DNA from: Paralichthys olivaceus | Taxonomy: Eukaryota > Chordata > Actinopteri > Pleuronectiformes > Paralichthyidae | Assembly: GCF_024713975.1 (NCBI RefSeq) | Contig: NC_091095.1 | Location: 8,261,501-8,325,500 of the forward strand | Length of the DNA: 64,000 nt | Direction: 5' to 3' | Shown here: positions 15,301-63,049 of the stretch, piece by piece | Layout: each line of letters starts with the position of its first letter | Numbering within the stretch: the first letter of the stretch is position 1 | Notes under the pieces: model-generated | Database searches by the model: none | What the model saw: the letters and a program-made list of their open reading frames with translations, nothing else | Told to the model about the DNA's origin: nothing | Position numbers and translations under genes: made by a program

Positions 15301-18300
15301 GTCACTGCTCATACTCTGTTTGTTTGAGGTCCCTTCCTGAATGAGACGATCCCATTAAACCACACAGACAGTAACAGGGCATGCACAGACTGAGGGGCGT
15401 TGCCTGGGGCTCCCAAACGTCATTGAAACGCTGCTGCACAGACAGATTCTGTGCGTCAATGTGCAGGTGGGGGGAAACCTTCTGGTTTCTATTTCTAGTT
15501 TGGCCAATCCCGTTTGAGCAGGCTTTTGCTGCCTGAAGATTGACATTTGAATGAATCTTCTTGCACATGTAGTTAGCTGTCATTAGTGATAAGTCAAAAT
15601 GATGTCTGGACCTAAAAGAACTCCAAAAAGTAACACTGTTTGTGTTTTGTGTGGTCACACATTCGACTTGTGTGACAAACAAAACCAGTCCGACTGCAAA
15701 CAGTGTAGTGTGAATGGAAAATGGAGTCTTGGCCTGACAAAATTATTGGCTGCTGCCCTCAGAGTTTAATTCATCATCAGAAGATAGTTGATGGGCTGAT
15801 ATTGTTGTTGCTCTAACCTGAAGCTGTTAAAAAGAGGCCAACTCATACCGTAAGCTTATGAGATTCTAAATCAGCGAACACCAGCTTTCTTTTAAAAAAA
15901 ATCCAAAGTTTAGTTCAGCTTGACTGACTGTGGTTTACCTAGCTAGTCAGCTGATGAGAAGATAAAAAACATTATTGTGCGATGTTATCCAGACGGGACG
16001 AGATGAGGATTGTTTTGCAACGTCAGATTTTTATTCAATGATTATACAATTCATTGAATCGTTTCCACAACTTTGTAAAAAATGTACAATTAAAATCTCA
16101 CTCAACGTAGCCAAACCAGACTCATGTAAACATCAGTTAGGACAAATATCACATACAGACAGCATCGCTTCATATCGGCATCTATGATTGAATGATATCA
16201 CAATTAATTTTGGTCAAACTTTCATAAAACTATTTTCTTATTCTCCAGAGGGGCAGCTGAGTCAAAGGTAAACAGGCAGTATCTTTAGCCCTGAGCTGTA
16301 CGCGTGGATGGCATCAGGTGATCTCTCCTACCTTGGTTGAGGATTAAGGCGGGGGCATAGATGACGATCCCAGTGTAAAGCAGCTGAGAAAAGTAAACAC
16401 AAAAAAAATCAGCAAACACTGTGAAGCGATGCATCAGGTTTAACCCTGTGGAAATGTTTGATGTTTGGTTATTGAGAAATGAATTAACTGGCCTGGAGTC
16501 TGATTCTGAGCCATGGCTAATCTTTATATTAAAAAAGGTTTTGGGAACATGACATCGTTTGAAGATTTTCTTTGACAACACTGAGTAACAGAGAGCACAA
16601 GGTCTGTCTTACCGTTGCAATAAGAAACTGGATGCTTCCGAACAGCTGCATCCCTCTGCCAAATCTCATCTTCAGATACTGTGACAGGCAGACAGCTGGA
16701 GTTAAAACACATCAGAGTATCTCTGCACACGTCCCTCCTCACCTCCTATATTCACATCCTCTGATGACCCACAGGTGCATTTCTACATTTTGTCCGATAA
16801 TCCTGTTTCTACTTCAATGCTGTGATGGCTCAGAAACATTTACTCTTACTGGAGGTATTTTGGGGCCTCATTAGTTTGTGTTTAGTTTGTTTAAAAACTC
16901 AATACCCCTTCACTTTGTTTAATTTTCCACTGCCTTCAAAAACATATTCTCTTATTCCTCTGATAATTCTGTAGAAGGCCATTCTTCAATCTTTGTAAAC
17001 ACTCAACCAAAATGTATATTTCTTCAGGGTTAAAGGTACTGTGTGTTATCTAGTATTAAAGTTGTATGTTGCAGCTGAACACCCCTCACCCTCTCCTTCC
17101 AAACATGAAAAAGAAACTGTGGTAGCTTCAGTTGTCATAAAAATTCAAAAGGTTTTAGTTTGTTCAGTCTGGACTAATGTAAAAAACATGGGGGCCTCCG
17201 TAGAGGGTCCCCTCGATGTAAATACAAAGTATTTGAATATAAAGGGCCTTTTCTGGGGTAAAGAAAATTACAATTCATACAATTTAGATGAATTGAACTA
17301 GTGAAAACATCATGAGAATTATTCTACATTCCATTTCTGCCAATAGTTCCCTTTCACCTAAATCTTACCTGCAGCCTTACGTTGCAATTTCCTGTGATGA
17401 TGATTTCATGACCTTATCAGTTCTTGGTCATGAGATTTAATGACTAAACTGATCATAATCATGATTGACATTCAAACCGATCATAATAGCGATCATAATT
17501 GATCATCATATTAATTTTAGATTTTGACATATGCATGCCATATTAATAGTCCTAATCATAGACAAGTAATGTTATTAAACTCTTAATAAAGTGAAAATGT
17601 TTCCTCATAATGCCGGGAATGCTCTTCGTGTAGTCTCTTAGTTTAAGACCAAGATTAATTTATGTCACCTTCAGATTTTGAAATGCTTTCACCTGTACTC
17701 GCACTCAAATAGCCCCCGCTTCTCCTTTGATTTGCTCTGCTTGTGCTCAAACTGTGCATTTGCACTCAGATAATTTGTTGCTTGGACAGATTCCCTGGGC
17801 TCCCGCCTTAGTTCTTCTTCAGCACAAGCAGAGCAAATCTGAGCACAAATGCCTGCACTCACACAAATTTGTGTGAGCCTGCACTCTTTCATAAAGATCA
17901 GTAAAAAAAAGTATTCTTTGTAATAGGCAGTGACAGTTTGACAATAACTGGAAGCTCATTAAGACCTGATTGGTGCTGGTGATGCCCAGTCGAAAGAAAA
18001 TGGGCAGGAAGAGGTACGCCGTCAGCAGGGAGTTGATACTTTGTCCGAGGCACATGTAGAGGAACTTGAAGCCATAGCGGGACGCCTCGGCAGGGACACC
18101 CAGAACCTGGACTGCTGACATAAAACTGGCGCAGAGTGACAGCCCCACAGGCACGGCTGGCATACTCCGACCACCGGTGAAGAACTCATCAGCACTCCTT
18201 GACCTCTTCCTCAAGGCCTGAAAGAGACCTATGGCCATAGAGATGAGCAACATGGTGGCAAAGACAGCGTAGTCCGCCAGGACAAAGTTGACTGGTTCAC

Positions 18301-18319
18301 TGGCAGACTGATCCTCCAT
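9323..18319 (-). CDS. slc5a5: Sodium/iodide cotransporter (NIS), complete
   Basis: Plasma-membrane Na+/I- symporter that feeds iodide into thyroid follicles. Fifteen coding exons: 17966-18319, 16613-16678, 16332-16383, 15171-15238, 14410-14564, 13894-14034, 12710-12839, 12405-12493, 11738-11850, 11558-11628, 11188-11274, 10710-10912, 10522-10619, 10161-10246, 9323-9394. They sum to 1785 bases, exactly 595 codons (594 aa; human 643). Diagnostic stretches: [87 protein letters not shown] and [18 protein letters not shown]. The Ser-Thr pair in SGTLST, in the region implicated in sodium binding, is conserved across the exon 8/9 junction. The tail ([11 protein letters not shown]) is recognisable but ends early. 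Intron 4 uses a GC donor. The exon 12 donor was chosen (GTCAGT) because the adjacent GTGAG breaks the frame. A noncoding first exon probably lies at 19042-19110. The gene is adjacent to jak3, as in human. Confidence 0.95.
9800..10060. repeat. Copy of the 'CCACCAAGGC...CTGTCCC' dispersed repeat
   Basis: Contains CACCACCAAGGCCCAACTGTCCCC preceded by a GATGGAAGGATG(C)GATAGAATG block. Related words occur at about 38300-38420 and 63400-63500, marking one decayed dispersed family. It lies between the last slc5a5 exons. Confidence 0.55.
11925..12300. mobile_element. MITE-like repeat in slc5a5 intron 8
   Basis: Shares CATCTTGATTGCCCCTAGTGG, CTCACCTCCTCCATGTTAGTACACGT and the downstream ATGATTGACAGTTGA...TTGTGATTGG block with the copy at 12905-13320. 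It is interrupted by an AT-dinucleotide stretch near 12167-12190. Confidence 0.6.
12905..13320. mobile_element. MITE-like repeat in slc5a5 intron 6, ends preserved
   Basis: The left end has TATTATAAAGGTGGACGAC and the right end is the imperfect reverse complement (CGTCGTCCATCTTTACTTACAG), so terminal inverted repeats are still visible. The interior carries CCCCTAGTGGCTGGCTGCAG and a GGCCGAGCACGTGTATCGGC block. It is non-coding. Confidence 0.65.
13440..13845. repeat. Unclassified ~400-bp dispersed repeat, copy A
   Basis: Matches the reverse complement of 24455-24840 over most of its length: GGACTTTCATATnTAACTCAGATGC, TTAACTATCCAATAGGATGC and GATGCATCAAGTCTACATTAAA are shared with small changes. 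There is no coding capacity and no obvious terminal repeats. It lies in slc5a5 intron 6, left of the MITE copy's far end. Confidence 0.65.
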
Positions 18320-23977: not shown

Positions 23978-37459
<13,482 letters not shown>

Positions 37460-39025: not shown

Positions 39026-41038
39026 AACTTAATCTCTTGAGTGAAGAATGGGAGGCAGAGCACTTTGCTGCCAGGCTCCTCTCCAAGGAAATCAGTTCTC
39101 AATTGTGTTCAGGTCAGACTTAACAGTTCCTTCTTCTATGCTTATAATTAGGTTCGTCAATCAATGATAAAATCTCATCCATTAGTGATGCTGCTGTAGG
39201 CTAAGACTGCTGGGAGAATTCCCATCATGCATTGAGCACCCACCCCCTCATGTATTTTTTTATCACAGAGATATTTCGAAAATGCATCTTTTAACTATAC
39301 TTTATTTTTTGACTATACTATGCGTCATTTCCTGACTTCATGATGTCAATTATCATATGATATCATATGATGGCAAGAAACTTTAGATTGTCTCTATTAT
39401 TTGCTACGTTATCTTGGAAAATGTTTGTTTACCATATTTTTGTTGACCTTTGACCAATCAATTACAACAGTTTATTATCTAGAGATACCCTCTCAAAAAA
39501 TTTTCCACCAAGTTTGGTGAAAATCTGTCCATACTACGCCGGGTAATAGTTCTATCAACCAGCTACAGCAACCGATTTATGTGAATTAAAATGTTGTCTC
39601 TTTACAATAAATGTGATCGTAAATTCTAGACAGTGTCACATCTGCCGGTGATGTACCAGTATGTTGAAAAAAATTCTACTTTTTGGGGGATTTTAGACAG
39701 AACATGTACATTGTGCACCACGGGCAGATAGCATAAGACTTTCAAAAATGTTAGTTTGTTCAAAATATTGAATTCATGATAATATTCATACACATTCATT
39801 TGTTTAGTATGTATATGACAATATAAATTGACATAAATTATGTAATTTAACCAGCAATCTTAACATTAACATTTTCTGTCACAATATTGCTCGAGGTACT
39901 TTTTCACAAAGATGGGTGCTGAAAACCCGACAAAATTAGCTTCTCTCCCATGGCTGCAGTGGCATTTCTATCAATCCATAAAATAAATGCTTGTCCATGC
40001 ATTGAACACCGAGGAGGGGAGTCTGTACATGAAATGGAATTACAGACACAAAACAAAGCTGTGTGGAAATGAGGTGTGAACCTATTTTGATATCACTCAA
40101 TGGGGGCACTACCAGTGCATGTCCTTGGTGCTAATTTGGCAATAAATCAATGAGTTTCTAATCATTCCAAACGTTTTATTTTCTTCAACTGACTTTACGG
40201 CCTTACCACAGGGGGAGGGACCTTTTTCTTATCAAAGGCCAGTCTATTTACATAATATCCTTCATGAGTCATAGTAAATTATAAAACACATATTTTGTAC
40301 ATGTTTTGGTGTCTCAGCCAAAACAATTGATGTTGTTATTTTTAATAATGTTGAACAATGTATTTTTCATTGATGTAAACTTTGTGGTTCACTATCAGTG
40401 ATGTACCTAAATTTCACTTTGGCATAAAAATAAACTTACCTCTCTAAAGTAATGGCTGGAACTGCTTGTCTTTTGCGAGGCGTCTGATGTCAGATAACAG
40501 TGATGATGCTGCTAACATAAAGTTTTAGCCTGAAATTGTTCAAATAAGTCCTAACTTTTGGTGGTGACATGTTTTGCTAGCAGACCAAAGTTCTTGCTTA
40601 GTATTAATCTTGGCAGGAATCATGCAGAAAATGCCTAGTTTGGAAGGAAGTATACGAATTATAAAGTCTATTGTTGTCCCTATGTAAAATATGCTGTTGG
40701 TGTCTCAACCTTAACAGAATTAAACTAGCTGAGTTGATTGGTTGCTTGGCTCTGAAGCATGTAAACCCTGAGGCTTTACTTTTGGCAGATTAAGCTGCTT
40801 CTTTCTCTTGAGCACAAAGGGGTATAAACTGAAATTGCTGCTTGAATTTAATTTATTGTTGTTGCATTTTACATTTTTTGGACCAACAAATCAACTATAT
40901 AGTACTTGGACATCAACAAACATCATGCAAACTGGCAGTTGAAATCTTTTGCTGTGAGGCAAGTAAGATTACTTCTGCAGGTGATGGAAGCAAGGTGTGA
41001 ACATGTACATCACCACCAATAAATTCAACTTCTTACTA
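39026..41038. other. Intergenic sequence, repeats only
   Basis: No coding exon seen. A fragment of the dispersed repeat that contains TTTTCCACCAAGTTTGGTGAAAATCTGTCC lies at about 39420-39560. The rest is AT-rich and includes the 3'UTR of the gene at 41039-42178. Confidence 0.5.
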
Positions 41039-42178
41039 CTAAAGTGATTTCTTTTTGCGTTCACACTTCAGATTAGGGTCATGTATTCTGTGCCACATAA
41101 GATAAATCTGAAAAGGTAGGAATCTATGCACCAATAAAATCTCTTTGTAAAAACAAGGATCGCTATCATCTAGTTGTTGGGAGGGAATGTACATTCCTAA
41201 ACTCATCACGCCTATATGGGAAACAACACTAAGTCCTGCATACGACAGACACATCCCCATATAAGCATCATCGATAGGAATTAAGGTGACAAACTTGGAC
41301 ATTTTATGTATGACCATAGCTGTATAACCAGACAGGAGGAAGCCCCCACCACTACAGTAAGGGGGATATGCATTCATTTCCAGAACCTGAACTGGTACAT
41401 AGTACTTGCTCTCTATCCTTCGGTCTAGCCTTGTGTCCTTTACCGAAAAACCAGTAAAGAGGTGCTTGCTTCCATCATTGTCCCTGAGGCTTTGGAGATA
41501 CTCGACCATGTTGTCTGTGTTGGCAAAAACATCATCATCACCATTTAGCAAGAAACGAGCTTTCGGACAATTTCTTTCCATCCATTGTAGGAAGAGTACC
41601 TGCTTCAAGGTGAGGTTGTAGAACGTGTCTCTAAAGTCCCATTGAAGAATGTCATTGTATTCATTTTGTTCCAATTCAAGAAGCTTGTTCTGTCTTAGTT
41701 TTTCAAACCCAGAACCCGTCGTTCCTGAGAGGAAGATCCTCTGGATCCGAGCACCATTGTGCAACCTCTCTTTAGCCCAGGTTTTGCGCAGTACCTCTCG
41801 ACGTTCATAGTTCACAGGGGAGCTTTTAATGACCAGGAGGAGAAAGATGTCTGCAGTGTTATCAGCTCCTCCGCATTTGTCAGGAATGTCCAATAGCATG
41901 GGAAAATGTCGACAGTGTCGATAGTAGAGAAAATCTTGAACAAGAACAGGATGAGAGCTGAAACCGTCAACTTTGGCAGCAGAAGTGTTTTGCTGGCATT
42001 TCGGCCAGGAGTATGCATAGGAGTTGTTTGTGGTGGATTTTCTTACATCACTGCCCTCTTCTGTCACCTTTTTGTCAAGGCGGATGGTTACTTGATAGTT
42101 AAAGTCTTTACAGAGTTGAAGGAACAAGAGACCAAGAGATACCGCCAGCAATAATGTTCTTACTCTGATGTTTGTCAT
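41039..42178 (-). CDS. b3gnt3: Beta-1,3-N-acetylglucosaminyltransferase 3-like, copy 1
   Basis: Golgi type II membrane enzyme of glycosyltransferase family GT31, expected to transfer GlcNAc in beta-1,3 linkage and so extend O-glycan core 1 or poly-LacNAc chains. The coding sequence is one exon of 379 aa. The ATG at 42178 follows a splice acceptor (CATTGCAG) within about 16 bases, and translation upstream of it is intronic. A short cytoplasmic stub precedes one membrane segment (TLLLAVSLGLLFLQL). Then come RREVLRKTWAKE, FLLNGDDDVFANTDNMVEYL (the DDD metal/UDP site), YCSGGGFLLSG and DDAYMGMCL. Asn-X-Ser/Thr sites are visible in the stem (NNS, NTS) and the catalytic domain (NLT). The symbol relies on family match plus the JAK3-B3GNT3 neighbourhood of human 19p13.11; another B3GNT number is possible. 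Confidence 0.88.
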   Translation of the reverse strand: MTNIRVRTLLLAVSLGLLFLQLCKDFNYQVTIRLDKKVTEEGSDVRKSTTNNSYAYSWPKCQQNTSAAKVDGFSSHPVLVQDFLYYRHCRHFPMLLDIPDKCGGADNTADIFLLLVIKSSPVNYERREVLRKTWAKERLHNGARIQRIFLSGTTGSGFEKLRQNKLLELEQNEYNDILQWDFRDTFYNLTLKQVLFLQWMERNCPKARFLLNGDDDVFANTDNMVEYLQSLRDNDGSKHLFTGFSVKDTRLDRRIESKYYVPVQVLEMNAYPPYCSGGGFLLSGYTAMVIHKMSKFVTLIPIDDAYMGMCLSYAGLSVVSHIGVMSLGMYIPSQQLDDSDPCFYKEILLVHRFLPFQIYLMWHRIHDPNLKCERKKKSL

Positions 42179-42199
42179 CCTTGAAACTCTGCAATGACA

Positions 42200-43885
42200 A
42201 AACAAAAGGTTTCTTATTAAAATATCTCAGTCAACTCTGTTTACGTAATGTAAAAAAAGTATGTAATTAACAAATAAAGGTCATAATAAAGGTTTCTTTC
42301 TGACAAGAGTCAGTGCTGTATTGCTTTTCCAAGCCAGCTTTCAAATTTTGCTTTTGAAGCCATGTTTATTTACACACCCAGCAGTTACAGAGCAAATCTA
42401 TCATTCATTTTGAGTCATCCAATATTCACGCTGTCTTTTAGCTCTGCTTTTGGTCTCAAGCGACTTCTGAGGAAAATATCTCCCCTATGTTAACTCGCAC
42501 ATCAACATTGTCTGTGTGACATTTAGCTTTGAGTACTAAGAATTTAGTGTTCAACTGAATACTTAGTACTCCAAACAGGAGACAGCAGGAGGAGCTCTAC
42601 AGGTGAGGTGGTTTGCAAAATTAAATGCTGTACTTTTACATGGGGTGGGGGTTTCAACAAGTCAAATGTTGTCATGTCTCCTTGCTATAATTGGTTGAAT
42701 AAATTATTTCAGACACCAAGTCATTACAACAAACTCTGATACTAGTTTAATGACAAAGTGGAAATTCGGGAAACTCTCAACATGATTTTACATTTTTACA
42801 CAATTACCCTATAATGATGGAAATGAGCTGCCAAGACCTGACACTAACCCAACCTTGTTACCGAGCATGAAGAAAACAAGCAGCAAAACCCACAACTAAC
42901 TGATGCCATGAAACCTAAAAATCTACCATAACCAAGTAAGTCAGTCAGTCAGTAAGCTGGGAGCAGCTCAAGTGTATTTACATTATGATATTACTGAAAA
43001 CAACTAAATTTTACGGTTTGTTTTTTATTCATCCTCTCTGTTGTCTTAACATTACATAAGATGTTTCTCATTTAATGTTGAGGCCTACAATGAGCATTTG
43101 ACTTTATTGATTTCATGTCGAACATCGTATGTACAAAATATTGTAAGCCATGATGGGATCTGATTTGTTGTCACCACATGTTAAAATACAGAATTTGCTA
43201 AACAGCTCATGTCTGCTCTCTCATGTGCGATCCACTCCTTTTCTCACATCCTTACTGCCCAACAATTAATACAAAATAAATTGAAAGAAAAGCATTTCAA
43301 CTTTCATTGGATGCTTGTAAATCTGACACTTAAGGAACTTAAGATAAATTGCCAGCAAGCTTAATTCCGTTTTTTTCTAATAAATGTATGACTTTTACAC
43401 CTGAGTGTAAACACCTGAGTTTTATTCCTTATAAATGTCTCAGTCTCAACCTCATTTACACGGAATTTAAAGAAAATTATTTCAACTTGAATGACCTGAG
43501 TTGATAGCTTAGCCAGTGACTCATTGTTAGCAGTAGCGGTTCATAATAACGCATTCCGCCGCATTCACGCATTTTAACAATGTAGTGAAACATCCACAGG
43601 CATTGATTGCACAGAACCGTGTGTACGACACATTGAAAAAAGTGCTAATATACAGCTTTAAACACTGTTGATATACAGAGGGGCCATCTTGGATTTCGAA
43701 GTCGGGGGTGGTGAAGTTCCTCCGAACCTTCAAATCAAAATTCCGTGACTTCAGTAGCTAGCTTGAGAAGCCCCCTCATTGCGCCGAGCTAGCTGGCGTC
43801 ATGATGTTTGTCAGTGTTTAACGCGGTGAGGTGATAAAAGTCTCTGAACTACAACAGACGTCTGACAGTGACATTCTCTGCTTAC
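42200..43885. other. Probable 5' intron of b3gnt3 copy 1
   Basis: Noncoding sequence between the acceptor before the coding exon and the donor at 43881-43885 (minus strand GACAG|GTAAGC). No other gene is recognised in it. Confidence 0.45.
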
Positions 43886-43897
43886 CTGTCTCACGCT

Positions 43898-44090
43898 GCG
43901 GCCTCAGCTGTCTGTCTCTCTGTCTCTCTGCGTCCTCAGCTGTCTGTCTCTCTGTCTCTCTGCGGCCTCAGCTGTCTGTCTCTCTGTCTCTCTGCGGCCT
44001 CAGCTGTCTGTCTCTCTGTCTCTCTGCGGCCTCAGCTGTCTGTCTCTCTGTCTCTCTGCGGCCTCAGCTGTCTGTCTCTCTGTCTCTCTG
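43898..44090. repeat. 32-bp minisatellite, six units
   Basis: Units start at 43898, 43930, 43962, 43994, 44026 and 44058. Each reads GCGGCCTCAGCTGTCTGTCT plus a 12-base CTCTGTCTCTCT tail; unit 2 differs by one base (GCGTCC). Near-identity implies recent expansion. Confidence 0.95.
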
Positions 44091-44659: not shown

Positions 44660-46546
44660 CGAGCTGTTTCGTTGAAGAACCAGCAGATTATCTGATGGAA
44701 ATTAGCTCCTCTAAGTTTATGTTACACCACAGTACACATGTATTGATTTATGTGTTTTCTTCTCTTTAATGAATTAAATTACTTTTAATTTTTGCAAGGA
44801 TTTACAATTTCTCATTTAACTTTTGAAACAACGAACAAACATTTATTCTAACAGTACATAAACACACCGCTGCCATCACTGTTTTAATACAATGACATTT
44901 TTACAAATGTTTGACAATGAAACAAATGAAAAACCAACAATCAAAACCCCTGTTTAATAGTAACCATTGTGGCAGCTTTATTCCTGAACCCTGAGTTATA
45001 TTTCTCTTGTATTTACAACTATATTTAACATTTGTTTGACATAATTTGGTCGAGGCAAAGTGTTGCAAGTAGAACATATTGTTCAAACATAAATACACAG
45101 GATGTTCTACAAAAATAAAGAAAACTGTACATATATGAGCTTAAGCTGAAAATTAAATAACATCACAACATATGTTTTAAAAACCCTGAGCAATTATTTT
45201 TCAATATTTTTCAAGACTTTTTGGAGTACTGCAGTAGTAAAAGGTATTGTTCAAAAGATTGGAGTAAAGGTTTACAAAAAAGATTTCATGAAGTACAAAT
45301 GGTATAACTGAAATTACCACCTTATGTTTGTTATGCAGAATTTCTTCTTCCTCCCGGCCACTGTGTGGCACTATGCTAGGGTTATGGTCCCCTGATTGCT
45401 GGGTGGCGCCGGTCTGCTGTTTATAACCACCACACCACGCCGCTTCCTAGAATTGCGGACCAACACCAAGCCCCAGTCAAAACAAAATCCCACAGACACA
45501 CTAACCAAACTGACAAAAATTATATATAACACACAAAACACACACCCAGATGCAATCATCATTAGAGACCCACCCACAGATACAATGGTAAAATATGGGA
45601 TCTTCAACAAATTCTGTGTCAGAAACCACTTTCTATCATATATGTGATTATACTGCATCTACAAAAAAATAAAACAATGACAACAATTATTAAAAAGGCC
45701 ATCCACACTCATTCCAGTGCCGTACTGTAGGTCTATATTTGTTTTGCTGATTAGGCCTGTCCTGCATCTTCTCTACTCTTTACATTCATTGTGGGACGAC
45801 CTACAAACATAATGGGCATAACTTCCTCCATAAGAATTTTAAAGTCACCTGACTGGCTGTGCTTGTTATGCTATGGATAACTGCTATCAGGGGTGTAGTT
45901 AAGCTTTTCAATTTATGTTTGAATGGTTTTCACAAGTTTTCCAATGAATCTCAACTCATTATTGTCCCATTCTTTGGGTTCTGCCACTTTACAGCTTGAA
46001 GAAAGAACCCTAATGTCAAATGACAAAACTTGTAAGATTAATTTCATAACATTATTGTAACCATGTGTGTAAAACTCTCTTTAAATTGCTCAGTAGGGGA
46101 CAGCACATGTTTCCAACATGTGCTAGAACCAGGTGAAAATTGTGCCATATATCAAGTTTGTTCAATAAATCACTGTGTAGGCTGTCTGTCACATTGAGGT
46201 CAAGTTTGTTAAATAATCTTAAAATTGGCCAGTAGGGGGCACCACACACTTTTGTTTGGAGGCAAATTAAAAATTCTTCTTGAGAGTAGGTGCTGGATGC
46301 AAAGTGTTAAATTACGTATAAGTTAAAAATGAACCAACTTCAGTTCGCAAAGGCAACGTTGTTTCAGCGTTACACTATATTTTGGACAATAATTCTTGTG
46401 TTTCATACAAATATAACGTTTACATTGCAAATAAAAGTACTCTGTCTGGTTTAGGTGAAACCTCTACCAGTGACATAAGAAGTTGTTTCATAGACCTGCC
46501 ATCAAATGATCACAGGGTATTGTCACCACCAGTGAGATTAATGCTA
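44660..46546. other. Intergenic sequence between the two glycosyltransferase genes
   Basis: No gene recognised. A frame on either strand at 45371-45658 lacks family resemblance and lies in low-complexity A-rich sequence. The 3'UTR of the gene at 46547-47686 occupies the right end. The phrases CAGTAGGGGACAGCACA (46091) and CAGTAGGGGGCACCACAC (46230) are a short repeated motif pair. Confidence 0.5.
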
Positions 46547-47686
46547 CTAAAATGATTTCTTTGACGGTTCACATATTAGATTGGGGTCATTTACTCTTTG
46601 CCACATAAGATAGATGCCTGCTGGAAGGAATCTGTGCACCAGTAACATCTCTTTATAAAAGCAGGGATCAAATTCATCTAGTTTTTTAGAGGGAATGTAC
46701 ATTCCTGAGGTCCACACACCCATATGGGAAACAGGACTAAGTCCTGCTTTGGCCAAACACATTGCTATGTAAACATCATCCATAGGAAAAAAAGGGATGG
46801 ACTGGGACATATTGTATATGACCATAGCTGTATAGCCAGACAGGAGGATGCCCCCACCACCACAAAAAGGGGGATAAGAGTCTGACTCCTGTACTTGTAC
46901 TGGGACATAGTACTTGCTCTCTGGGTCTCTAATGGGCCCCGAGTTCTGGACCAAATTTCCAGTAAAGAGGTGCTTGCTTCCATCATTGTCCCTGAGGCCT
47001 TGGAGATACTCAACCATGTTGTCTGTGTGAGCAAAAACATCATCATCACCATTTAGCAAGAAGCGAGCTTGGGGACAATTTCTTTCCATCCATTCTAGGA
47101 AGAGTACCTGCTTCAAGGTGAGGTTGCAGTGCGTGTCTCTAAAGTCCCATTGAAGAATGTCATTGTGTTCATTTTGTTCCATTTCAAGAAGTTTGTTCTG
47201 TCTTAGTTTTTCAAACCCAGAACCCGTCACTCCTGAGAGGAAGATCCTCTTGATCTGCACACCATTGTGCAACCTCTCTTTAGCCCAGGTTTTGCGCAGT
47301 ACCTCTCGACGTTCATAGTTATCAGGGGGGCTTTTAATGACCAGGAGGAGGAAGACTTCTGCAGAATTTTCAGCTCCATCACATTTGTCAGGAGTGTCCA
47401 GTATCATGGGAAAATGTCGACAGTGTTTATTGTAGAGAAAGTCTTGTATATGTTGAGGAAAAGAGCTGAAGTCTTCGACATTTCCAGCAGACATGTTTGT
47501 TTGGCATTTCGGCCAGGAGTATACATAGGAGTTGTTTGAGGGGGACTTTCTTATTTTAGTGCCCTCCTCTCTTACATGTATGGGGCTGCAGATGGGGCTT
47601 TTGTCAGTAAACTCTTTAAAGAGATGGAAGACCAACAGACCAACAGCTGCTGCCAGCAAGAATGTCGTGATGCTGATTTTCCTCAT
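46547..47686 (-). CDS. b3gnt3: Beta-1,3-N-acetylglucosaminyltransferase 3-like, copy 2
   Basis: Tandem paralogue of the gene at 41039-42178, also exactly 379 aa in one coding exon after an acceptor (TCTCTGCAG). Same GT31 layout: membrane anchor (TTFLLAAAVGLLVFHLF), ERREVLRKTWAKE, FLLNGDDDVFAHTDNMVEYL, FCGGGGILLSG and a C-terminal IYLMWQRVNDPNL. The two proteins agree over long blocks and differ mostly in the stem and the acceptor-side loop after SKHLFTG. The conserved Gly of the D(D/V)xYxGMCL motif is Ala here (DDVYIAMCL), which could alter acceptor handling. Function is presumed as for copy 1; divergence may mean different acceptors or expression. Confidence 0.88.
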   Translation of the reverse strand: MRKISITTFLLAAAVGLLVFHLFKEFTDKSPICSPIHVREEGTKIRKSPSNNSYVYSWPKCQTNMSAGNVEDFSSFPQHIQDFLYNKHCRHFPMILDTPDKCDGAENSAEVFLLLVIKSPPDNYERREVLRKTWAKERLHNGVQIKRIFLSGVTGSGFEKLRQNKLLEMEQNEHNDILQWDFRDTHCNLTLKQVLFLEWMERNCPQARFLLNGDDDVFAHTDNMVEYLQGLRDNDGSKHLFTGNLVQNSGPIRDPESKYYVPVQVQESDSYPPFCGGGGILLSGYTAMVIYNMSQSIPFFPMDDVYIAMCLAKAGLSPVSHMGVWTSGMYIPSKKLDEFDPCFYKEMLLVHRFLPAGIYLMWQRVNDPNLICEPSKKSF

Positions 47687-47811
47687 CTTTAAAACTCTGC
47701 AGAGAAAAAAAAAAAATTTAATCAACACATCTCAGTCAGACATCAAATAATTCAAATGACTGATTAGAAATGAATTGCTTAGGTATGATAAAGATATCAG
47801 ACATGCACCTT

Positions 47812-49482: not shown

Positions 49483-49495
49483 TCACACACACACA

Positions 49496-49559
<64 letters not shown>
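49483..49559. repeat. (CA)n microsatellite
   Basis: About 38 CA units interrupted near the start by one G (CACAGACAC). Confidence 0.98.
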
Positions 49560-52144: not shown

Positions 52145-53559
52145 CTAAAAACTGTTGTCCTCGTCAGAGTGATGAAAACACATGTCCATTCTTTGTCGGA
52201 GGCGCTTCTTAAGCTGAAAGTGTCTCTTCACTGAGGTAGTGTTGTACTCCTGGGCCTTTAGCTTGGCGTAGTAATCAGAGAACTTGTTAAACAGGAAGGA
52301 GATGGGCATGCCATTCAGGATGATACCAAAGGAGATGCAGCCAAAGGCCACGATACGGCCCAGGACGGTTTCAGGAACCACGTCCCCGTAGCCCACAGTC
52401 GAGATGCTGACCTGAGAGAGAAAAGTTGACATGAGAATCAGTTTTCATGAACATTTATTGTTCTGTACAAAATGAAACCTATTGACTATTGTCAGGTGAC
52501 CAGTTTTCTTGCTGTTGTCATGATGACGAGAACAGAGGAGATTAAGTTAAAGAGTTGTTATGTTAGGAGGAAGACTTTCATTTAATAGCCCTCTGATTAT
52601 TTGAAACCCATAGGTTATCATTATCCTTGTCTGCTCAACAACCATAACCGTGTCTTATCATTGTAACCATGGAGACGAAGGTCCTGTAATCTCAGGGGAG
52701 TACTTCTTTTAACATGTGTGGTACACCTGTCTTTGTATCCATGGGTAACTTACTGTAGGAGACCAATATGTTAAATTAAGTTAGATGACTTGTTCCTTTT
52801 CATCCCACAACTTTCAAGTTATGTACGGCTGGTAAGGTAGCATAGCAGACAGGATTTTATTATTGGTTTATAGGGAGGTCATGAACATGTGTACATGTGT
52901 TCTGTGGTGAAAGAGGTTGGAAGAAATGTATTCTATTTGTAACAAGTTTTTAAATCACTCTATTGTGGACTTTTTTTGCAAAAGCAGATTCTGCAACACA
53001 CATGCAGCTACACCCCTCAAATGGACTAATCTTGTTTGTTTGTTGCTATAGTCCAATGGTGATTCATGTTGCTCCAAACTGCTGAGTTTGATCCCTGCTT
53101 TAACAAGAAGCAGAAGGCTTTACTCACATACAGCAACTTGTTTGGACTTGTGATAAAGATGCAAAGGTTTAGGATATTGAAACTGAGACTTGGTTTACAG
53201 CAGGGTTTGCTTCTGGTATCATTTTCATTTTTATTGGTTAATCTAATTACATGTGCTGTGTATTTAGGGGGAAAATTCACTGTTGGATGAACATACACAC
53301 ACACAGACACACAAATGTACGACATTAGCTTGCTAAAGCTAGTTATCTAGACTGTTAAGCGATGAGCAAGGACTCCAGTACCAGCACACACACAATTTTG
53401 CACCAGAAATGTCATATGAAGTATAGAAGTATATTCTCATTTTCTGACACAGGCGATGTTCGGAGACAGCTAGGGCTAAAGCTAAATCTGAGGACCACGG
53501 TGGTCCTGAGCCATTTGATATGCTGGCACAGGCGGAAATCTCAATCTCAGGATCAAATG

Positions 53560-53595
<36 letters not shown>

Positions 53596-55344
53596 TAGAC
53601 AGCCAAGGGCCAGAAGATGAATGTTAGGCTTTGTGGTAGTTTAGGGGTTTAGTTTAAGCAGAGATGTGAAAATGAGAGCGGCTTTCGTAATTCCCATTAG
53701 GGACTGGTCGCTGGTGGCGGAGGGTGTTAATCTTTCATATATATTTAAATAATTTAGAGGCATCCAAAATGGTTGGCTCTATGTAAGCATTGGTCCTACA
53801 GGGTCCAAGATGGTTTCAATCACTGGCTGGCATTATGAGCCATGTTCCAACCACATCTTTTTTTATAAATGTGTAATAAATGTGATATTGAAACCAGCAT
53901 TAATGTATTTCATCTAAGAATAGTCATATAATTTAGTTTACAGCTCATAAAAGAATTGTTGTAAGACTATAAGACTTTTATCCTTCATATTTCCATATAG
54001 GTGATCGAGCACAACAAATGGAGACACCAGTGCAGCAACAAATCGCCAAACAAGGTCAAATTTACGATGATGGATACTCACTGCAGCCCACCACCAGGCA
54101 TATGGGATACTGCTGATGGGAGATCCCTCAGTCTCCCTCTCGGCTGAATGCAGAAGAGCAGAGAAAGTGAAGATTCCCATGGCGATAAAAAGGAAAATGC
54201 AAGATGCCTGCTGGTAACACTGCCGCAGAGTGAACCCAAATGCTCTCATGCCGGTTGAGTGTCGAGCCAACTTCAAGATCCGAAATACCCTCAGCAGCTT
54301 CACCACTTTGAGGACATGGCTGAGTCTGCTGACTCGAGCCATTGCCCTGACCTCTTTCTGTGCGCTCGTATCCTCTGTGTTATTGAAGCCTTCGAAGATG
54401 ATCTGGAAGAAATAAGGCATCACTGCCACCATGTCCACAAAGTTTAGTCCACTCTTCAAAAACATTATGATGTCTGGACTGCTTACAAGGCGAATTAAAT
54501 ATTCAAAGGTAAAGAAGACAATGGTGATAATCTCCACCCATTCCATGAGTGTTTTGCCTTTAATTGTATACTGTTGAATTTCCTCCACAGTGTTGAGAGC
54601 CATTGCCATGATAGAGAAGAGCACAAAAAGATTGGAAAGCACGTTGAAAGCCTTCGCCAGAGTTGAAGAGTACGGATCCTCTACAACGTTCCACAGACTC
54701 TTCCTTAGATCACCAAACATCATGTCCTGGAAGGACTCTTCATTGTACTTCACCTCAATCTCAGCCATCAGCTCCTTGTCCACCTTTAGGTTGTCCTTCA
54801 CCTCATCCACCTTCTCCTCAAACATCATCCAGCAGCAGCGCTGAGTGTCCTTCAGGCTCAGACCCCAGTATGCCATTTCCTCCTCAAAGTTGATGGGGCA
54901 CATTTCCTGTATGACCCACAACACTCCGCTTGTGTAGAAATGGCGGATGTGGTGGAAGAAGGCAGGGTCCCGATCGAAGAAGAACTCGTTCTTGCGTACG
55001 GAGTAGTCATCACAAAGTGTGCAGAGTTTTGCCCGGTCTCTGCATAGAGCCAAGGAGCCAATACGGGTACGAGGGTATTTGACGGCACACTGTGTAGGGA
55101 TGTGAAAAACCTTCCCTCCAACGTTAACACTGATGCTCTGCTGCAGCTTAGGTCTCTCCTCAGCTTTAGGACACTCTACTTCGATACCAGGACTGTCGAG
55201 ATCATCCAGCGAGCTCCATGCTTTGACCGTTTTCTCCTGAGAAAATGGGAATGTTTTGTGGTCGTCTGCACCATTTGAGAAATAATTAATAGTAGACCGG
55301 CGATTTTGTAAACATCTCTGAAGTTGAGCTTGTGCTGAAGCCAT
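52145..55344 (-). CDS. kcnv2: Kv8.2-like silent voltage-gated K+ channel subunit
   Basis: Modifier alpha subunit that co-assembles with Kv2-type channels; KCNV2 acts in photoreceptors. Two coding exons: 54082-55344 and 52145-52411, 509 aa (human KCNV2 545). The ATG at 55344 is the first in frame. T1 domain near residues 75-180 ([27 protein letters not shown], then [13 protein letters not shown]). S1 is [20 protein letters not shown]4 is [21 protein letters not shown], and the intron splits the pore just before [15 protein letters not shown] (filter GYG at 428-430). S6 holds [21 protein letters not shown], with NGMP instead of the PXP of ordinary Kv channels, a mark of silent subunits. Kv8.2 rather than KCNG is judged from the linker (NTVEEIQQ) and tail. 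Teleosts have two kcnv2 genes; which one this is cannot be told here. Confidence 0.88.
53562..53593. repeat. (GT)n microsatellite in the kcnv2 intron
   Basis: About 16 GT units in the single kcnv2 coding intron. It creates a spurious Val-Cys frame. Confidence 0.95.
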
Positions 55345-55347
55345 AGA

Positions 55348-55651
55348 AACTGTACTGTCAGCACAGAAGTGAAATTGAGCAAAAAGAAACAAGGAAATAC
55401 TTTCTAGCAATTTTTTCTAGCAACACATAGTATCTTGCTAAATCACCAGAAAGATTTCATCAGGTCCTGCAGGAAGCAAGACTCCAGAAACATCCTGTTT
55501 TGCTGCTTTGCTGTGAACCAGGTGGAGAGAAAAGATTGTATCTTACTGCAAATACTTAACAAAGGCAACTGATTCTAAGGAGGAGGAGAGCAGCAGGGAT
55601 TTCATCTGTTTAATCTCACTGGTGCCCTTCCAAGTCTCTTTAAGCAGTTGT

Positions 55652-55665
<14 letters not shown>
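55348..55665 (-). promoter_or_regulatory. kcnv2: kcnv2 5'UTR/promoter, source arm of an inverted duplication
   Basis: It ends about 4 bases before the kcnv2 ATG. The reverse complement of this stretch is found at 59690-60014 with scattered substitutions. It includes the words for CACTTCTGTGCTGACAGTAC, GATACTATGTGTTGCTAG and TTCACAGCAAAGCAGCAAAAC on the minus strand, and it is bounded on the far side by a GT microsatellite. Confidence 0.8.

Positions 55666-55707
<42 letters not shown>
55655..55707. repeat. (GT)n microsatellite
   Basis: About 25 GT units directly upstream of the kcnv2 promoter arm. The partner arm also begins next to a short CA/GT tract. Confidence 0.97.
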
Positions 55708-55708
<1 letters not shown>

Positions 55709-58700
55709 ATTAAGAAACAAGGTTGATTTAAGGATTTTTAAGTGACGGGGCAATGAGACAACTGGGGCTTTATATTGTATCTATTCTTATTCCTTTTAAA
55801 TCACTTTTTTCTATTCTATTCTTTCTTCGTACTGTTCTCACTCTGGTGATAAAATTATATTCATAATTATATTATATTGATTTTTTTTTTTTCAACAAAG
55901 CTGATTACAAATGTATCTTCTCGTAAAAAACCTGTAATGTGTGTAATTTTCTTTGTGGTTTTTCTACTACCTGGTAGTTGGTATTTAACCCATGAAGTCA
56001 AATATGAAATATTATACAGCTGTATACAGCGTCAACATACAGTTGGCAATTACATTCAAACATGGGGCCTTTTTTTTTTTTAAATTTGAGCCTATCAGAC
56101 ATATAAAAACAGCTTGATGGGGGTAATGGGTTCTATGTACAACCCGACATACTTTCTGTAACAGGGCCTTTGCAGTGAAAGACAAATCAGTCACTGTAGG
56201 ATTAGTGTCGGGGTATCGCGGTGGTCCCAGGGACCCCAGCAACACATTCCTCGTTGGCAAAGTTAAAGAACAAAGATATTTATAAGTAGCATGGTGGAGA
56301 TGCAGACCTGTATGGTTTTAATTGTTTAAGTGCTTTTTAAATTATTTTATTGGTCTCACTAGTGCTGGCCTCCTAACTGTATGTGTCAAAAGTAAATCTA
56401 GAGAAGTGGAATTCAGTAACTATGGTCCCTCTCTAGAACAAATCCTCAGATGATATAAGATGTAATAATAAAACCTGTTCTGCGTGTTTGTGTCTGTTTT
56501 TGTTCATTTCATCTTTGAGGGTAAGACAGTGGGTGTGTTGTCTAAACATATGTATCCTTGTCAGCTGCTAGAGCCGAACATAACCAACCTGACACGTAGG
56601 AGCAACGTGCTCACAGTTCCACAGACTCTGCATCACTCTACATTTCTTTACTTGTTGGAGTTACTGATATTGATGCACTGGGTGTTAGCAGTGAGATAAC
56701 TACACATAGTTGTATTATACTTCCCTTTCAGTAGGTTTATCCTGTGAAATTAAATATCTATTTTAAATGGGAGAGAGTTTACAGATGTACCTTGTGACCC
56801 CCACGCCACGGTGCAAGAAAACAGGACCATGTGTTTAAGTGATTGCAACGTTCCCACCAGTGTGTCGTCAGAGTCAGGTCAGACAGTGTGTCAAACTAAA
56901 GCTCATTATAGAGCGACATCATGTGATTAAGTGAAATGTTTCACCTCTCATCAGGAGGCTTTCTTCACTTCAGTTCCACAGGCCTTGTTCCTTAAAAGCA
57001 GATTCATATTTCGTGGCCCACACGTTATTATATCGTGTTTTATGTTATGTATTTTTGACCAAATGTCACCAGGGGCTCCTTAACTTACACAATCACACAA
57101 TCAGAGTTTTTTTTACCAGCATTTAGCAGCTGTAACTGTATTTCCACTGACTGAGGTCCTGTGTTCACTATTTACGAACACACAGTTTTACTTCTTGTGA
57201 AGCAAAAAAATATGATATTTAATGATTTTTAAAAAAGCTTGCAATGTTAAGTGCAGTGTAAAGTTAGCGTGTTAAATAATGAAGATTAAAATTATAAATT
57301 GATGTTTTTCTATCTTTCTATGTGACACAAAAATATTTTATTGTTTATAAACTTGCAGGAAAAAACATGAAATATTTTTGATATTTAATTCATGTTCATC
57401 ATTCAACCGAATCTCACGTGGCTCAAACACAGTTCAACAATGATTCTGAAGCCACCCACATATAAATAAAACTGTTCCTTACAAATAAATACCAACAACA
57501 AAACTCACACAGTTTGAGTTCGAGAAAAAAAGAACACAAGGAGACTGGACATCAGACAAGGCAAGTCGATCAAAACATTCACAAGTAAATCCAAACCTGT
57601 GGGAGACATCGAATAAAACCACACACACATTTGTTCCCATGGTTGCACCAGCGATTAGAAACCATCAAAACTTAAACCTGCAACCCAAGAAATCCTCTTT
57701 GTCTCTTTACTCACACTCTTAACACTGACTACATGTGCAGTGTTAATGTATCTGAACAAGCTACACTTCATTGTCTTTTATAATTGGACAGAGTCAGGTT
57801 CATTGCTTCAACCCTTTTCTTTCCAGTCTTCGTTATAAAGTGGAGATAACCAGCTGCTGGCTTCATGTTAATATCAGCATCAAACATTTCCCGACATTTA
57901 AAGACAAAACAAAAAGACAATATACCTTGATTTTCTGGCCATTCCTCTGCGTGATGGAGCTGACAAGCAGCAGCAGTTTCAGTAGTAATCAGTAAAAACT
58001 ATAAGAAAAGCTCTGTCATAACCTCCTCTGATGGATAAATTAAAGCTGAAGGATTTTAGTTTGCCATGACCCCAGATGAGGTCACTGTAAAAGACCCCAG
58101 TGAGAGTCAAACCCAGCGTTTTCATCTATTCACAGTTAAAAGGCCATTTTAAGTTCAGTTTGCATAAATAAATATGAATTGATGTATGAATATTGTAGAA
58201 ATGTAGCAGTTTGCACATATAATATTAAGGTCTTGTGTGAGATAAATAGACAGTATTCTTACACTGGAATAAAAATAAAAATCATTTTCTCAGTCCAGTA
58301 CACTTTTTGGAGTTTTAAACTGAGAGAACAGAATTAATTTCCTTCCTTTCACATTCTTCCTTGAATTTGAAGTGTTTAAAAGAATAAAGCATCTTTTTTA
58401 CCGTTACAGTATCTTAGAGAATTGCCCTCCTGGGACAAATAAAGTTGTTTTTAATTGAATTGAATACTGACAAACCTGAATGCCAAGAACTAAATATAAT
58501 TGTTGGAAGGAAAATCTACTATTCACAACACCTCCAATCCATCTATAATACTGGAAAAGTAAAGTTTTGTGACTAAAAATAAACTGGAATTGCAAAGACT
58601 CATTATTTTCTCAATGAATCTTTCTGTCTTTCAAATCCAAGATAACAGTGAAATCAATTTATCACCACTCTCCGCAGATCTCAAATAGTATGTTTTGTCT

Positions 58701-59230
58701 GATCAACAGTACAAAACCCAAAGACATTTTAATTTTACTGTCAAATTTGAAAGAAAACTAGAAAAATGTCATCTGAAACCAGCTAATCAATAATGAAAAT
58801 ATCCCAATTCATTTCAGTTTGGTCATTTCAAACTATCTTTCTCACGGTCATTTTGGAGAATTATAGTCTGTAACACAACTGGCAACTGTTGAGCAAAATG
58901 CTTGAAAACAGGAATTTAAAAAATTAAGCAAACTATTTCATCCATATTAATATTTAACACAAAAAAATAGATGAATGCTTATTGACCGGTTTCAGAATCA
59001 AACTTGACAATGGCCTTCATGAACAAGAAGAATAATCTACTGTAGAAGCACGAAGGCTGAATGTAATACTTCTCCAGAACTAAAGGTGTAACAGTAATGA
59101 CTGTTCAAAGGCCCTTTCCCCTCTCCGATCTCACTCATCTACCAGCTGGGTTTGCCGTCAATGTCGTTCAGTCTGGGGCTTGAGAAGCACCAGGTGAAGC
59201 CCAGTCAGCTGGACGTCTGTCACACTTTCT
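55708..59230. other. Intergenic region and 3'UTR of the LDLR-like gene
   Basis: No gene recognised in 55708-59100. A repeat tail ending GGGACAAATAAAGTTG...GAATTGAATA is at about 58425-58468, reminiscent of retroposed elements. The 3'UTR of the minus-strand receptor gene lies below 59231, and AATAAA-like signals for it could be near 58977 on the minus strand but are not certain. Confidence 0.45.
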
Positions 59231-62200
59231 TCATTCCGCGTCCAAGTCCAGCTTATGCAGTTTCCTGGCGACGGAGAAAACACACGGCTTAGTTGAAATA
59301 CTGCACACTGTAAGCCTTTAACCTGAGGAGAGCCGGTCAAGCTGTGTTTATCTGCGGAATGAGCAGAGTGCTTTTTAAGAAAAGTGACCTGCATTTAGAA
59401 CCAAGAGACCTAAATGAACAACAAACAGGCCTGACACTGGACTATTGAGACCAATATTGAAACTTCTATTAAAATAAAGAAGTATATATATAAGTCTATA
59501 TATAAATTGCTACATTGGGTTTGTCAATATTAACATTGAATATACAAGTACATGACAAATCCCTTAAGTAGGTCATAAAGGAATTTTAACTAAGTGCTGA
59601 ATGGGACACTTCACAGATTAAGATGGGGCTGCATCTAACATTTATTATTTGTTTATGATTATATCTTAAGTTAAATTTAATTACTTCTCCACACACACAC
59701 ACCACCCCCTACAACTGCTTAAAGAGACTTGGAAGGGCACCAGTGAGATTAAATAGATGAAATCCCTGCTGCTCTCCTCCTCCCGAGAATCAGTTGCCTT
59801 TGTTAAGTCTTTGCAGTAAGATACAATCTTTTCTCTCCACCTGGTTCACAGCAAAGCAGCAAAACAGGATGTTTCTTGGATATCGCTTCCTGCAGGACCC
59901 AATGAAATCTTTCTGGTGATTTAGCAAGATACTATGTGTTGCTAGAAAACATTGATAGAAAGTGTTTCCTCGCTTCTTTTTGCTCAATCTCACTTCTGTG
60001 CTGACAGTACAGTTGCCGGTCCAATCTGGAGGTGAATTAACGTGCCTGTCTTTGAGTGTTTGACTGTTTACTGACTTCTCTTACCTTGGCCCCTGGATGA
60101 TGATGAGCGGGTCCTGAGATTCTTTGAGGTAGAAACTCTGCACAGTGAGGGGCCTGGATGGCCTGAACTCCTCTCTCCACCACCATACAGCCATCCCCAC
60201 CAGCAGCAAACTGAGAAAAACTGTGAACAAAAAAAGTGTACACACACACACACACACACACACACCACACACACACACACACAAATGGCAAGTTAAGATG
60301 CTGCTGACAAGGTTCTGTATGATACCTCCACCATTCCCTCCTCTATACAGACAAACAAGTGGCCACTACGACCAAATAAATAAGGAAATTATAAGACAAT
60401 AAGAAAAAAGTGAAGTCTATCAGAATCAACAATGATTCATGCAAATAATTATTGAAATGAATGTTCCACTTAAACAAGTTTAATAATATATTTAACTGTT
60501 TAAGTCTCTACATTCAAACTCAAACACTTCACAATTCAAATCTAGTTCATGTAAACACATTCGAAAAAACCTGAGGACACAGACTGGTGTCTTAATTGCT
60601 GGTGCTCTATATTTGTAATTTCTGTGTTTTTTAGCAAAGCTTTTATTATTAATATCTGATTATGAGTCACTGTTACAATAAAACATTTGATATATGTAAT
60701 GACTGTTCAAACACACATTTGTACATGTTTTAGTAGCGATGACCTGGCCTGTGAGACAGGTCATCTTTCTTATTGACAGGTTCTGCTGTCAATAAGAAAG
60801 ACAGACTTTATTTGACCCAGGAAACTGAATCTTACTGATAAGAGAGAGGACTCCAATGAAGGTGGGATCAGATAATCTCGAGGCCCGAACAGCGATAGAA
60901 GGAGTTTCATGAGAATTTTGTTCAGTGTCTGGAAAAACACAGCTGAACTCTGGACTCTCAGACAGCAGGTCGACCACACACCCGTGGTGGCACGCTGTCC
61001 CAGGACGTCCACATACAGATGACCCTAAGAACCAACAGGATGTTGTGAGGTGGCCAAGTACACCCTGTTTTTATTAATCAAACCTAAACACAAACCTTAA
61101 CATATCATGAAATCTGAGACATATCATGTGCAGAAATGTCCTTGATCGTACCATCAGGCTGGAGGACGGGCTGAATGACGACCACACCACCTGGTGATGC
61201 TACATTTGTCAGCAGTATTTGAAGTTGGCTGCCATTGTGCTTGTTTGCTCTGCAGATGGAGCGCGTGACTTCTTCACTCCAATATACAAAACCCTGTTGA
61301 AACAGAGAGAGGGAGTAAGCATTATTTGATTGTGGGTTTTCTTAGGCTTCTTCCTACAGTTCAAATACATGCAGATCAGGATGAGGTTGATTGCAGACTC
61401 TAAATTGACTGCAGCTTTGAGTGTGAAGATTTATAGGCGCATCAGTACACCACCGGGCTGTAACATCTTTTTCACCTCAAACACAGCCAGTCCGAAGGGT
61501 CGGTCCAGATAACCATTAGATTCCACCACTGTTTTACGATCACGGCCTTTAAAATTTACTCTGGAGATGCTTCTCTGATCAGCCCAGTACAACAGCTGAC
61601 GAGGCATATCTAGGGGGAAAAAAACACATGAACACATAAATGGATGTGGTAAACAGCACTGCTCACACATATTGTTTTAAAGGGGAGGCCATTCCTTTTT
61701 TAAATTTCTTTAAACTTTCCAAAATCAATTCAGATACATTGCAAAATGAAAACATATGGAATATAGAGATTTTCCAAGTTTCCAAGTACAAAAACTTTCT
61801 TTGATAATTATCACAACATACCTACAGAGAGGGCAACAGGGCAGCGTATTGAGGAAGTGACTAGGGCCACAGTGTCTCGGCCGTCCAAGCCAGCACTCTC
61901 AATCTTTGGGAAACTGCCACATTGAGCCCAGAAGAGAAACCTGAGAAAACAAAATGCAGCAGAGTTCTGCGATAAGATTCTTGACTCATCCTATTTAATT
62001 GTTCTTTATGTTTGTACTTCTTGCATTCATGCTTTTTCCAATATTGTAAAAATTGTAATTGTGTAATTAAACACAACACTGAAAATATTTTTTTATGTCA
62101 TTCATTTAAAATATGTTACAAAAAAACTTCAACAGCCCGGTTTGGTTTAGACTTTGGCTAGGTTGTCCTCTGTGTAGTGTTTTTATGAATCAATGACACA

Positions 62201-62815
62201 TCATTCTAATGAAGATCAATCGTAATCAGAAAATAGTTTTTTGAAACCTCAACCTATGTCCAATCAGGCGGGGAGAATGAAATAAATGTGATTGGCAGAT
62301 TCAAATGGTATAGACTAAAGTTGACTATTGGGTGGGTAGAGTAGACATTTGGGTGGGTATTGCCCACCCCTGCCCACTTCTAGATCTGGGCCCCGTTAAC
62401 AAACTGTTGAGAAAGTGAAAGTCGAAAGAGAGAGAAAAATTATTCTGTATCAGCACACTGATGCAGTCCCCCACCAAAACTGAATGGGTGATTTTCTGAC
62501 CCAGACTGCATCCTTCTACCAAGTTTTGTGGGAATCTGTCTGACAGATGAAAACGTAACCTTGTTCCAGGTAAAAATGGAAATCTGTGTGTAGCTCTACC
62601 CTCTGAGAGGATCCACAGCCACTGCAGAAGGTTTGTCCAGCCCTGTGATGAGCTGACGCTGTATTGAACCGTCCAGCAGGCTGACGTTAATCGAACCACT
62701 CTCCACGCCGGTCCAGTAGAGGAGCTGGTGGATCCAGTCCACGGCCAGGCCCGACACTGTACCTTTTACTTTCAGCAGCAATGTGGCGTTATGTTGATTT
62801 CCATCCATGGAGACC
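59231..62815 (-). CDS. Divergent LDL-receptor-family protein, 3' part (5' end beyond window)
   Basis: Seven exons: 62600-62815, 61822-61940, 61476-61609, 61152-61293, 60836-61024, 60085-60220 and 59231-59264, phases all consistent. The first four match, exon by exon, the end of the six-bladed YWTD propeller of VLDLR/LDLR (SGLAVDWIHQLLYWTG, KPSAVAVDPLRG, LLYWADQRSISRVNFKG, DRPFGLAVFE, GFVYWSEEVTRSICRANK). The next encodes an EGF-like module (CGRPGTACHHGC) and a short linker. A membrane span crosses the following junction (IGVLSLIIFLSLLLVGMAVWWW). The cytoplasmic tail is about 40 aa (begins REEFRPSRPL, ends HKLDLDAE) and has no NPxY. Blade two is eroded (FLFWAQCG for YWSDWG). Order and direction relative to kcnv2 copy human VLDLR-KCNV2. 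It could be a lost-in-mammals VLDLR/LDLR ohnologue or the fish vitellogenin receptor Lrp13; I cannot decide, so no symbol is given. Confidence 0.82.
59690..60014 (+). repeat. Inverted copy of the kcnv2 promoter/5'UTR
   Basis: Lies in the last intron of the LDLR-like gene. From CCCTACAACTGCTTAAAGAG through GCTGACAGTACAGTT it follows the reverse complement of 55348-55665 with a few substitutions and small indels. Similarity stops at AGTT|GCCGG, where kcnv2 reads AGTT|TCTATGG, so the start codon is not included. Confidence 0.85.
60239..60283. repeat. (CA)n microsatellite
   Basis: Interrupted CA tract (one CACCACAC break) about 20 bases upstream, on the minus strand, of the receptor's transmembrane/tail exon. 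Its length could influence the polypyrimidine context of that acceptor. Confidence 0.95.
60764..60801. repeat. Perfect 16-bp inverted repeat, 6-base loop
   Basis: Arms 60764-60779 and 60786-60801 (TCTTTCTTATTGACAG and its exact complement) around GTTCTG. It lies in the intron about 35 bases past the 5' splice site at 60835 of the receptor's EGF/linker exon. A second small inverted pair GACCTG/CAGGTC lies just beside it (60741-60762). Confidence 0.95.
62265..62400 (-). repeat. Short dispersed repeat, copy B
   Basis: Contains GCCCACTTCTAGATCTGGGCCC and AATAAATGTGATTGGCAGATTCA, the inverse of 18545-18650. Intronic. Confidence 0.55.
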
Positions 62816-63049
62816 CTGAGAAACATCCACAGATGAAAAGGCATAACACTCACAATCCTTGTCTTTGTGAGCATGTGAGCCTGCTAATGTTGACACATAT
62901 CACACGTTAACAGGCAGGAAAGGATCAGAAGCATCTTTTTACTAATGATCCTTTTCTTCTTATTAACTGATTATTTTGATGTTTCTCCCTGAAATCCATT
63001 AGACTATATGAAATCAGCCTCTATGTTCAGCACAGGGAATTAAATACAC

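Follow-up and report, generated by a model that had tools for sequence, protein, structure and literature searches.

A probable local inverted duplication shared by a kcnv2-type channel gene and the last intron of a neighbouring receptor gene

Inverted duplications belong to the MMBIR model, according to the excerpted account in PMC2621351. A fish example is provided by the LWS opsins of the guppy, for which the excerpt of PMC2527612 describes an inverted tandem duplication, with strand switching as one proposed cause. At the RNA level, inverted Alu repeats (IRAlus) form dsRNA that is edited by ADAR, as stated in the excerpt of PMC11263572. The locus described here shares features with each of these systems. 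Like the FoSTeS/MMBIR inverted duplications in the excerpts of PMC2621351 and PMC7954356, it has a nearby inverse copy, sharp edges and a spacer. It differs from the cases excerpted there in a jump on the kb scale and in an edge that lies in a microsatellite, and its mechanism is one that we infer. The resemblance to the guppy opsins lies in the host, a fish, and in inverted copies that are a few kb apart; the guppy spacer measures 3329 bp between the copies and likewise contains a microsatellite, following the same excerpt of PMC2527612. In the guppy, however, whole genes were duplicated, whereas here only a 326-bp non-coding upstream segment is involved. With the IRAlus of PMC11263572, as excerpted, the locus has in common that its arms are inverted, a few hundred bases long and able to form long dsRNA. 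In contrast to them, its arms lie in two genes, one in each, and have no known high copy number, they do not constitute two retroposons in a single transcript, and they are known from the DNA sequence alone.

The inverted repeat pair and its edges

Self-BLAST of the 64 kb window (the whole stretch of DNA that was analysed) revealed that positions 55348-55673 and 60014-59690 are reverse complements of each other, with 94.17% identity over 326 columns, 18 mismatches and one gap (411 bits, E 7.5e-115). The first segment, arm A (minus strand), lies directly upstream of the kcnv2 start codon and ends in a (CA)n/(TG)n array; the second, arm B (59690..60014, plus strand), is its inverted copy. When the window was shuffled 20 times (Markov-1), inverted self-matches reached at most 42.5 bits. 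This comparison confirms the inverted duplicate of about 320 bases with arms about 4 kb apart that was proposed in the first-pass annotation, and excludes that it consists of scattered short matches only. Alignment and a repeat search also recovered the pair, the latter as 312 ungapped nt at 94% identity with 4043 nt between them; the inner edges of the arms as delimited here are 4016 bases apart. Among the best 80 self-BLAST matches, the pair ranks second by score, behind one tandem gene pair (41010-42233 and 46523-47738, 80.7%), and no other of these matches with at least 300 columns exceeds its identity. The substitutions comprise 11 transitions and 7 transversions (K2P 0.058), and the longest perfect runs are 67, 48 and 47 nt.

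Hairpin reads and mis-joins can produce inverted duplicates, so that an assembly or library artefact had to be weighed. Such an origin is hardly credible for a pair whose arms are 94% identical with 19 differences, have distinct flanks and are separated by a 4-kb spacer, with open frames and splice signals that look intact on both sides. The inverted repeat is real and well defined and, with two high-identity inverse copies and sharp edges, is probably a local inverted duplication of an ordinary kind. This inverted repeat did not appear in the titles or abstract openings of the literature matches listed, which is no proof of its absence from print.

On the coding side, the edge of arm A at 55348 is separated by 3 bases from the kcnv2 ATG at 55344-55342; the earlier placement of this edge close to the start codon was borne out, but the distance is 3 bases and not about 4. 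The far edge of both arms meets a CA/TG microsatellite, in agreement with the first-pass annotation. At arm A this is a (TG)n array of 53 bp (55655..55707, from self-BLAST), and at arm B a (CA)n stub of 13 bp (59690-59702, read from the sequence). The discrepancy between the end of arm A reported earlier, 55665, and the end found here, 55673, falls wholly inside the microsatellite.

Beyond the edges, the alignment score of the coding-side flanks was reached by 407, 230 and 108 of 500 shuffles at 100, 300 and 600 bp, respectively, and that of the distal flanks by 495, 187 and 43 of 500. Flank similarity thus measured does not exceed that of shuffles on the coding side, nor clearly so on the distal side, where the 600-bp result is the least clear of the comparisons. 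A longer duplication masked by divergence was rejected, the flank scores being reached by shuffles. An inverted pair of 38 nt with 71% identity across the microsatellite was likewise not taken as an extension of the arms, because the flank alignments are not clearly above shuffles. A 19-nt direct repeat (16/19) links arm A with the sequence past its microsatellite and was equalled by 2 of 60 random 40-nt stretches. Further CA/TG arrays were found nearby by self-BLAST, for example at 49484-49559 and 60240-60283, the latter just upstream of the transmembrane-like exon of the receptor gene and some 230 bp beyond arm B.

The two host genes and the content of the arms

The channel gene, kcnv2 (52148..55344, minus strand), was delineated from Pfam, a PDB match and reading frames. 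Its exon 1 begins at the ATG mentioned above, within a minus-strand frame (55344-53938) that carries BTB_2 and Ion_trans and has Kv2.1 (KCNB1) as its best PDB match. The pore exon with the STVGYGD motif lies within 52148-52444 on the same strand, according to frames and Pfam. The name kcnv2 rests on the first-pass annotation and on synteny rather than on a library match, and synteny suggests that the gene is probably kcnv2b.

Arm A had been described as holding the whole proximal promoter and leader. This description could not be established, since arm A has no match to TATAWA, contains four upstream ATGs and has AGs that resemble acceptors of a possible 5' UTR intron. In the kcnv2 orientation, each of the four upstream ATGs, one of which is nested in the frame of another, meets a stop within the arm, and arm B retains all of them. 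The kcnv2 frame itself is open upstream of the ATG up to a TTG at 55410, with no in-frame ATG in that interval. On a crude acceptor score, the two AGs nearest the kcnv2 ATG fall at percentiles 0.886 and 0.812, and three AGs deeper in arm A at 0.988-0.996; for comparison, the AG at 59265 scores 0.974, and two close to where the kcnv2 pore exon begins score 0.988 and 0.974. From these acceptor-like AGs, part of arm A may be a 5' UTR intron.

kcnv2 has a role in the retina. We counted 11 motif patterns in the arms. TAATCY, TGCTGAC and CACCTG, which we take to be candidate photoreceptor motifs, occur once each in both arms, where mononucleotide shuffles give expectations of 0.46, 0.02 and 0.09, respectively. 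AGGTCA, AAGTCA, CCAAT, GGGCGG and CTAWWWWTAG are absent from arm A, in which GATTA occurs once (1.02 expected) and YYANWYY four times (7.0 expected). A promoter or antisense role of arm B is conceivable but unsupported. That arm B is in fact a working copy of a promoter or enhancer, firing rightward antisense to the receptor gene or coupling both genes, is very unlikely. Its orientation would fit, as the strand layout confirms the earlier statement that arm B points rightward, antisense to the receptor gene, and arm B would read in that direction if it acted as arm A does. The retention of the three candidate motifs in both arms also fits. However, with 11 patterns tried, single motif matches carry little weight; the remaining patterns are missing from arm A or occur there no more often than expected; motifs are common to both arms simply because the arms are 94% alike; and a long leader is unlikely given the four upstream ATGs.

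The predicted last intron of the receptor gene (59265..60084, minus strand, 820 bp) contains arm B, as previously claimed and now supported by splice signals (donor CCAAG/GTAAG, acceptor CGCCAG/GAAAC). Arm B fills 325 of the 820 bases, and 70 bp separate its outer edge from the donor. The receptor frame is kept across this intron into a short predicted last coding exon of an LDLR-family receptor (59231..59264, minus strand), which was recognised by eye from its acceptor context and frame. The first-pass annotation had also suggested that the arms could mediate an inversion of the kcnv2 5' region. Recombination between them is possible in principle, given the perfect run of 67 nt, but the present order bears no sign of such an event: the reading frame continues into the predicted last exon of the receptor.

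Upstream receptor exons and introns (60085..62883, minus strand), assigned from frames and PF00058, comprise a transmembrane-like exon ending at 60085 and LDL-receptor class B (YWTD) exons. PF00058 was found in two of the four receptor fragments given to Pfam, a result that fits any LDLR-family member. The receptor tail reads ..QSFYLKESQDPLIIIQGPR, followed by KLHKLDLDAE and a stop, and is presumably unlike that of VLDLR. The excerpt of PMC9935665 places kcnv2a next to vldlr, describes lrp13 expression as dominant in the ovary, and in its Fig. 2 legend names lrp13, smad2, susd1 and kcnv2b after the vldlr/kcnv2a/pum3 set. From the text of this legend we infer that lrp13 and kcnv2b are adjacent in teleosts. 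An identification as VLDLR was dropped in favour of an lrp13-like receptor because the tail does not resemble that of VLDLR and because kcnv2b is named together with lrp13 in the excerpted legend. By synteny, the receptor is probably lrp13. Visual inspection of the minus-strand frames did not reveal the unique C-terminal LDLa repeat of lrp13.

Origin of the duplication

The best explanation, which we hold with moderate confidence, is one local inverted duplication of the region upstream of kcnv2b into the receptor intron by template switching, leaving copies that are about 6% diverged and mostly neutral. A single local event would have copied a segment of about 326 bp, reaching from within the CA/TG microsatellite to a point 3 bp short of the kcnv2b ATG, and placed it in inverted orientation in the last intron of the neighbouring receptor gene. 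The likeliest mechanism would be replication-based template switching of the FoSTeS/MMBIR type, with the microsatellite perhaps serving as one switch point. Since CA/TG arrays are common nearby, the shared microsatellite edge is weak evidence for such a switch point. Junction microhomology is readable only with the empty site. The copies would since have diverged by about 6%, with arm B evolving as mostly neutral intronic sequence. If local inverted duplication is all that happened, the locus offers a clean, about 6% diverged example of gene-upstream DNA seeded into the intron of a neighbour.

Some observations count against this explanation. The mismatches between the arms form clusters (15 pairs within 8 bp, p about 0.011) that would not be expected under a simple neutral clock; gene conversion could be their source, as could small indels that were aligned as substitutions. 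In addition, it would be a remarkable coincidence for a random breakpoint to fall 3 bp from the ATG. The edge at this site would mark the insertion point if the direction were reversed and kcnv2b had acquired a new upstream region, copied from the receptor intron to a position immediately before its ATG. The event is not polarised by the sequence alone, and the direction from arm A to arm B is suggested by the adjacency of arm A to the gene, not by an outgroup. The reversed direction is nevertheless quite improbable, as the gene's own promoter would have had to be replaced or displaced without loss, which seems less parsimonious.

It is also rather unlikely, if less so than the reversed direction, that the unit is an interspersed repeat, for instance a short retroposon whose tail is a microsatellite, and that two of its copies happen to lie 4 kb apart in opposite orientation, one of them directly upstream of kcnv2b. 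The same microsatellite ends both arms, as would a retroposon tail, and a 6-base AGAAAC repeat flanks arm A together with its microsatellite array. Several results speak against such a unit. A search with a two-arm profile (nhmmer --max) detected no third copy within the 64 kb window, where the six further matches were weak (best E 0.24), which supports a single inverted pair there. ARAGORN, which seeks intact tRNAs and would miss a decayed tRNA-derived head, detected no tRNA gene in 55000-60500. Rfam gave no match at the gathering score in the window; a permissive scan of 55340-60020 gave four matches, each below its cut-off, of which the two in arm A were SCARNA7 (19.9 bits against a cut-off of 65, E 0.08) and mir-2985 (18.8 bits against 68). 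As for target-site duplications, the best candidate at arm A, of 6 bp, was equalled by 742 of 5000 random placements and is thus within chance, and none is apparent at arm B, where the score of 4 was reached by 3748 of 5000; an old target-site duplication could have decayed since. One 22-mer had no match in viral and prokaryote collections, which carries no weight for a fish repeat.

RNA complementarity and other features of the window

The kcnv2 and receptor genes are both on the minus strand and are transcribed leftward. With the arms inverted relative to each other, any kcnv2b RNA that contains arm A is therefore complementary, at 94%, to RNA of the receptor intron. This complementarity is real, is the main intrinsic property of the arrangement and was absent from the first-pass annotation. 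The predicted duplex between the RNAs of arm A and arm B has an energy of -576.6 kcal/mol, compared with -117.8 on average and -134.9 at the lowest when the partner was shuffled (20 shuffles). If paired, receptor intron RNA and kcnv2b RNA would be a potential dsRNA or ADAR substrate. Read-through of both arms in one transcript would give a hairpin of about 325 bp with a 4-kb loop, likewise a possible substrate of this kind. On the minus strand between the last receptor exon and arm A, there are two AATAAA-type signals (56346 and 57337) and several of the ATTAAA type; given these, receptor RNA probably ends before arm A and read-through is probably uncommon.

A regulatory consequence can be envisaged in which the spliced-out intron of the receptor, probably an ovary-dominant yolk receptor, acts as a trans-antisense RNA and forms about 325 nt of dsRNA that silences kcnv2b wherever the receptor is transcribed. 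The dsRNA would be edited, diced or kept in the nucleus, and one small inverted duplication would link the two neighbours. We regard both the silencing and these fates of the dsRNA as highly improbable. kcnv2b and the receptor are expected to be expressed in different tissues. If the RNAs truly paired, a small duplication would have coupled a receptor gene to a channel gene in antisense.

Several other features were observed in the window. Self-BLAST returned two inverted pairs with many gaps, 988-1320 / 20162-19818 (77%) and 13468-13833 / 24828-24463 (74%), which are perhaps copies of transposable elements, and a direct repeat at 43877-44090 with a spacing of about 98 bp and 93% identity. A fragment of a Sodium:solute symporter (PF00474) lies on the minus strand at 17819-18319. 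Pfam identified a fragment with protein-kinase similarity at 33687-34214, which resembles a JAK2 exon; JAK2 and KCNV2 are located on the same human chromosome arm. Finally, 41010-42233 and 46523-47738 contain tandem single-frame galactosyltransferase-like genes with 80.7% identical DNA and frames of 388 and 393 aa; Galactosyl_T was found in the former, the only one of the two that was given to Pfam.
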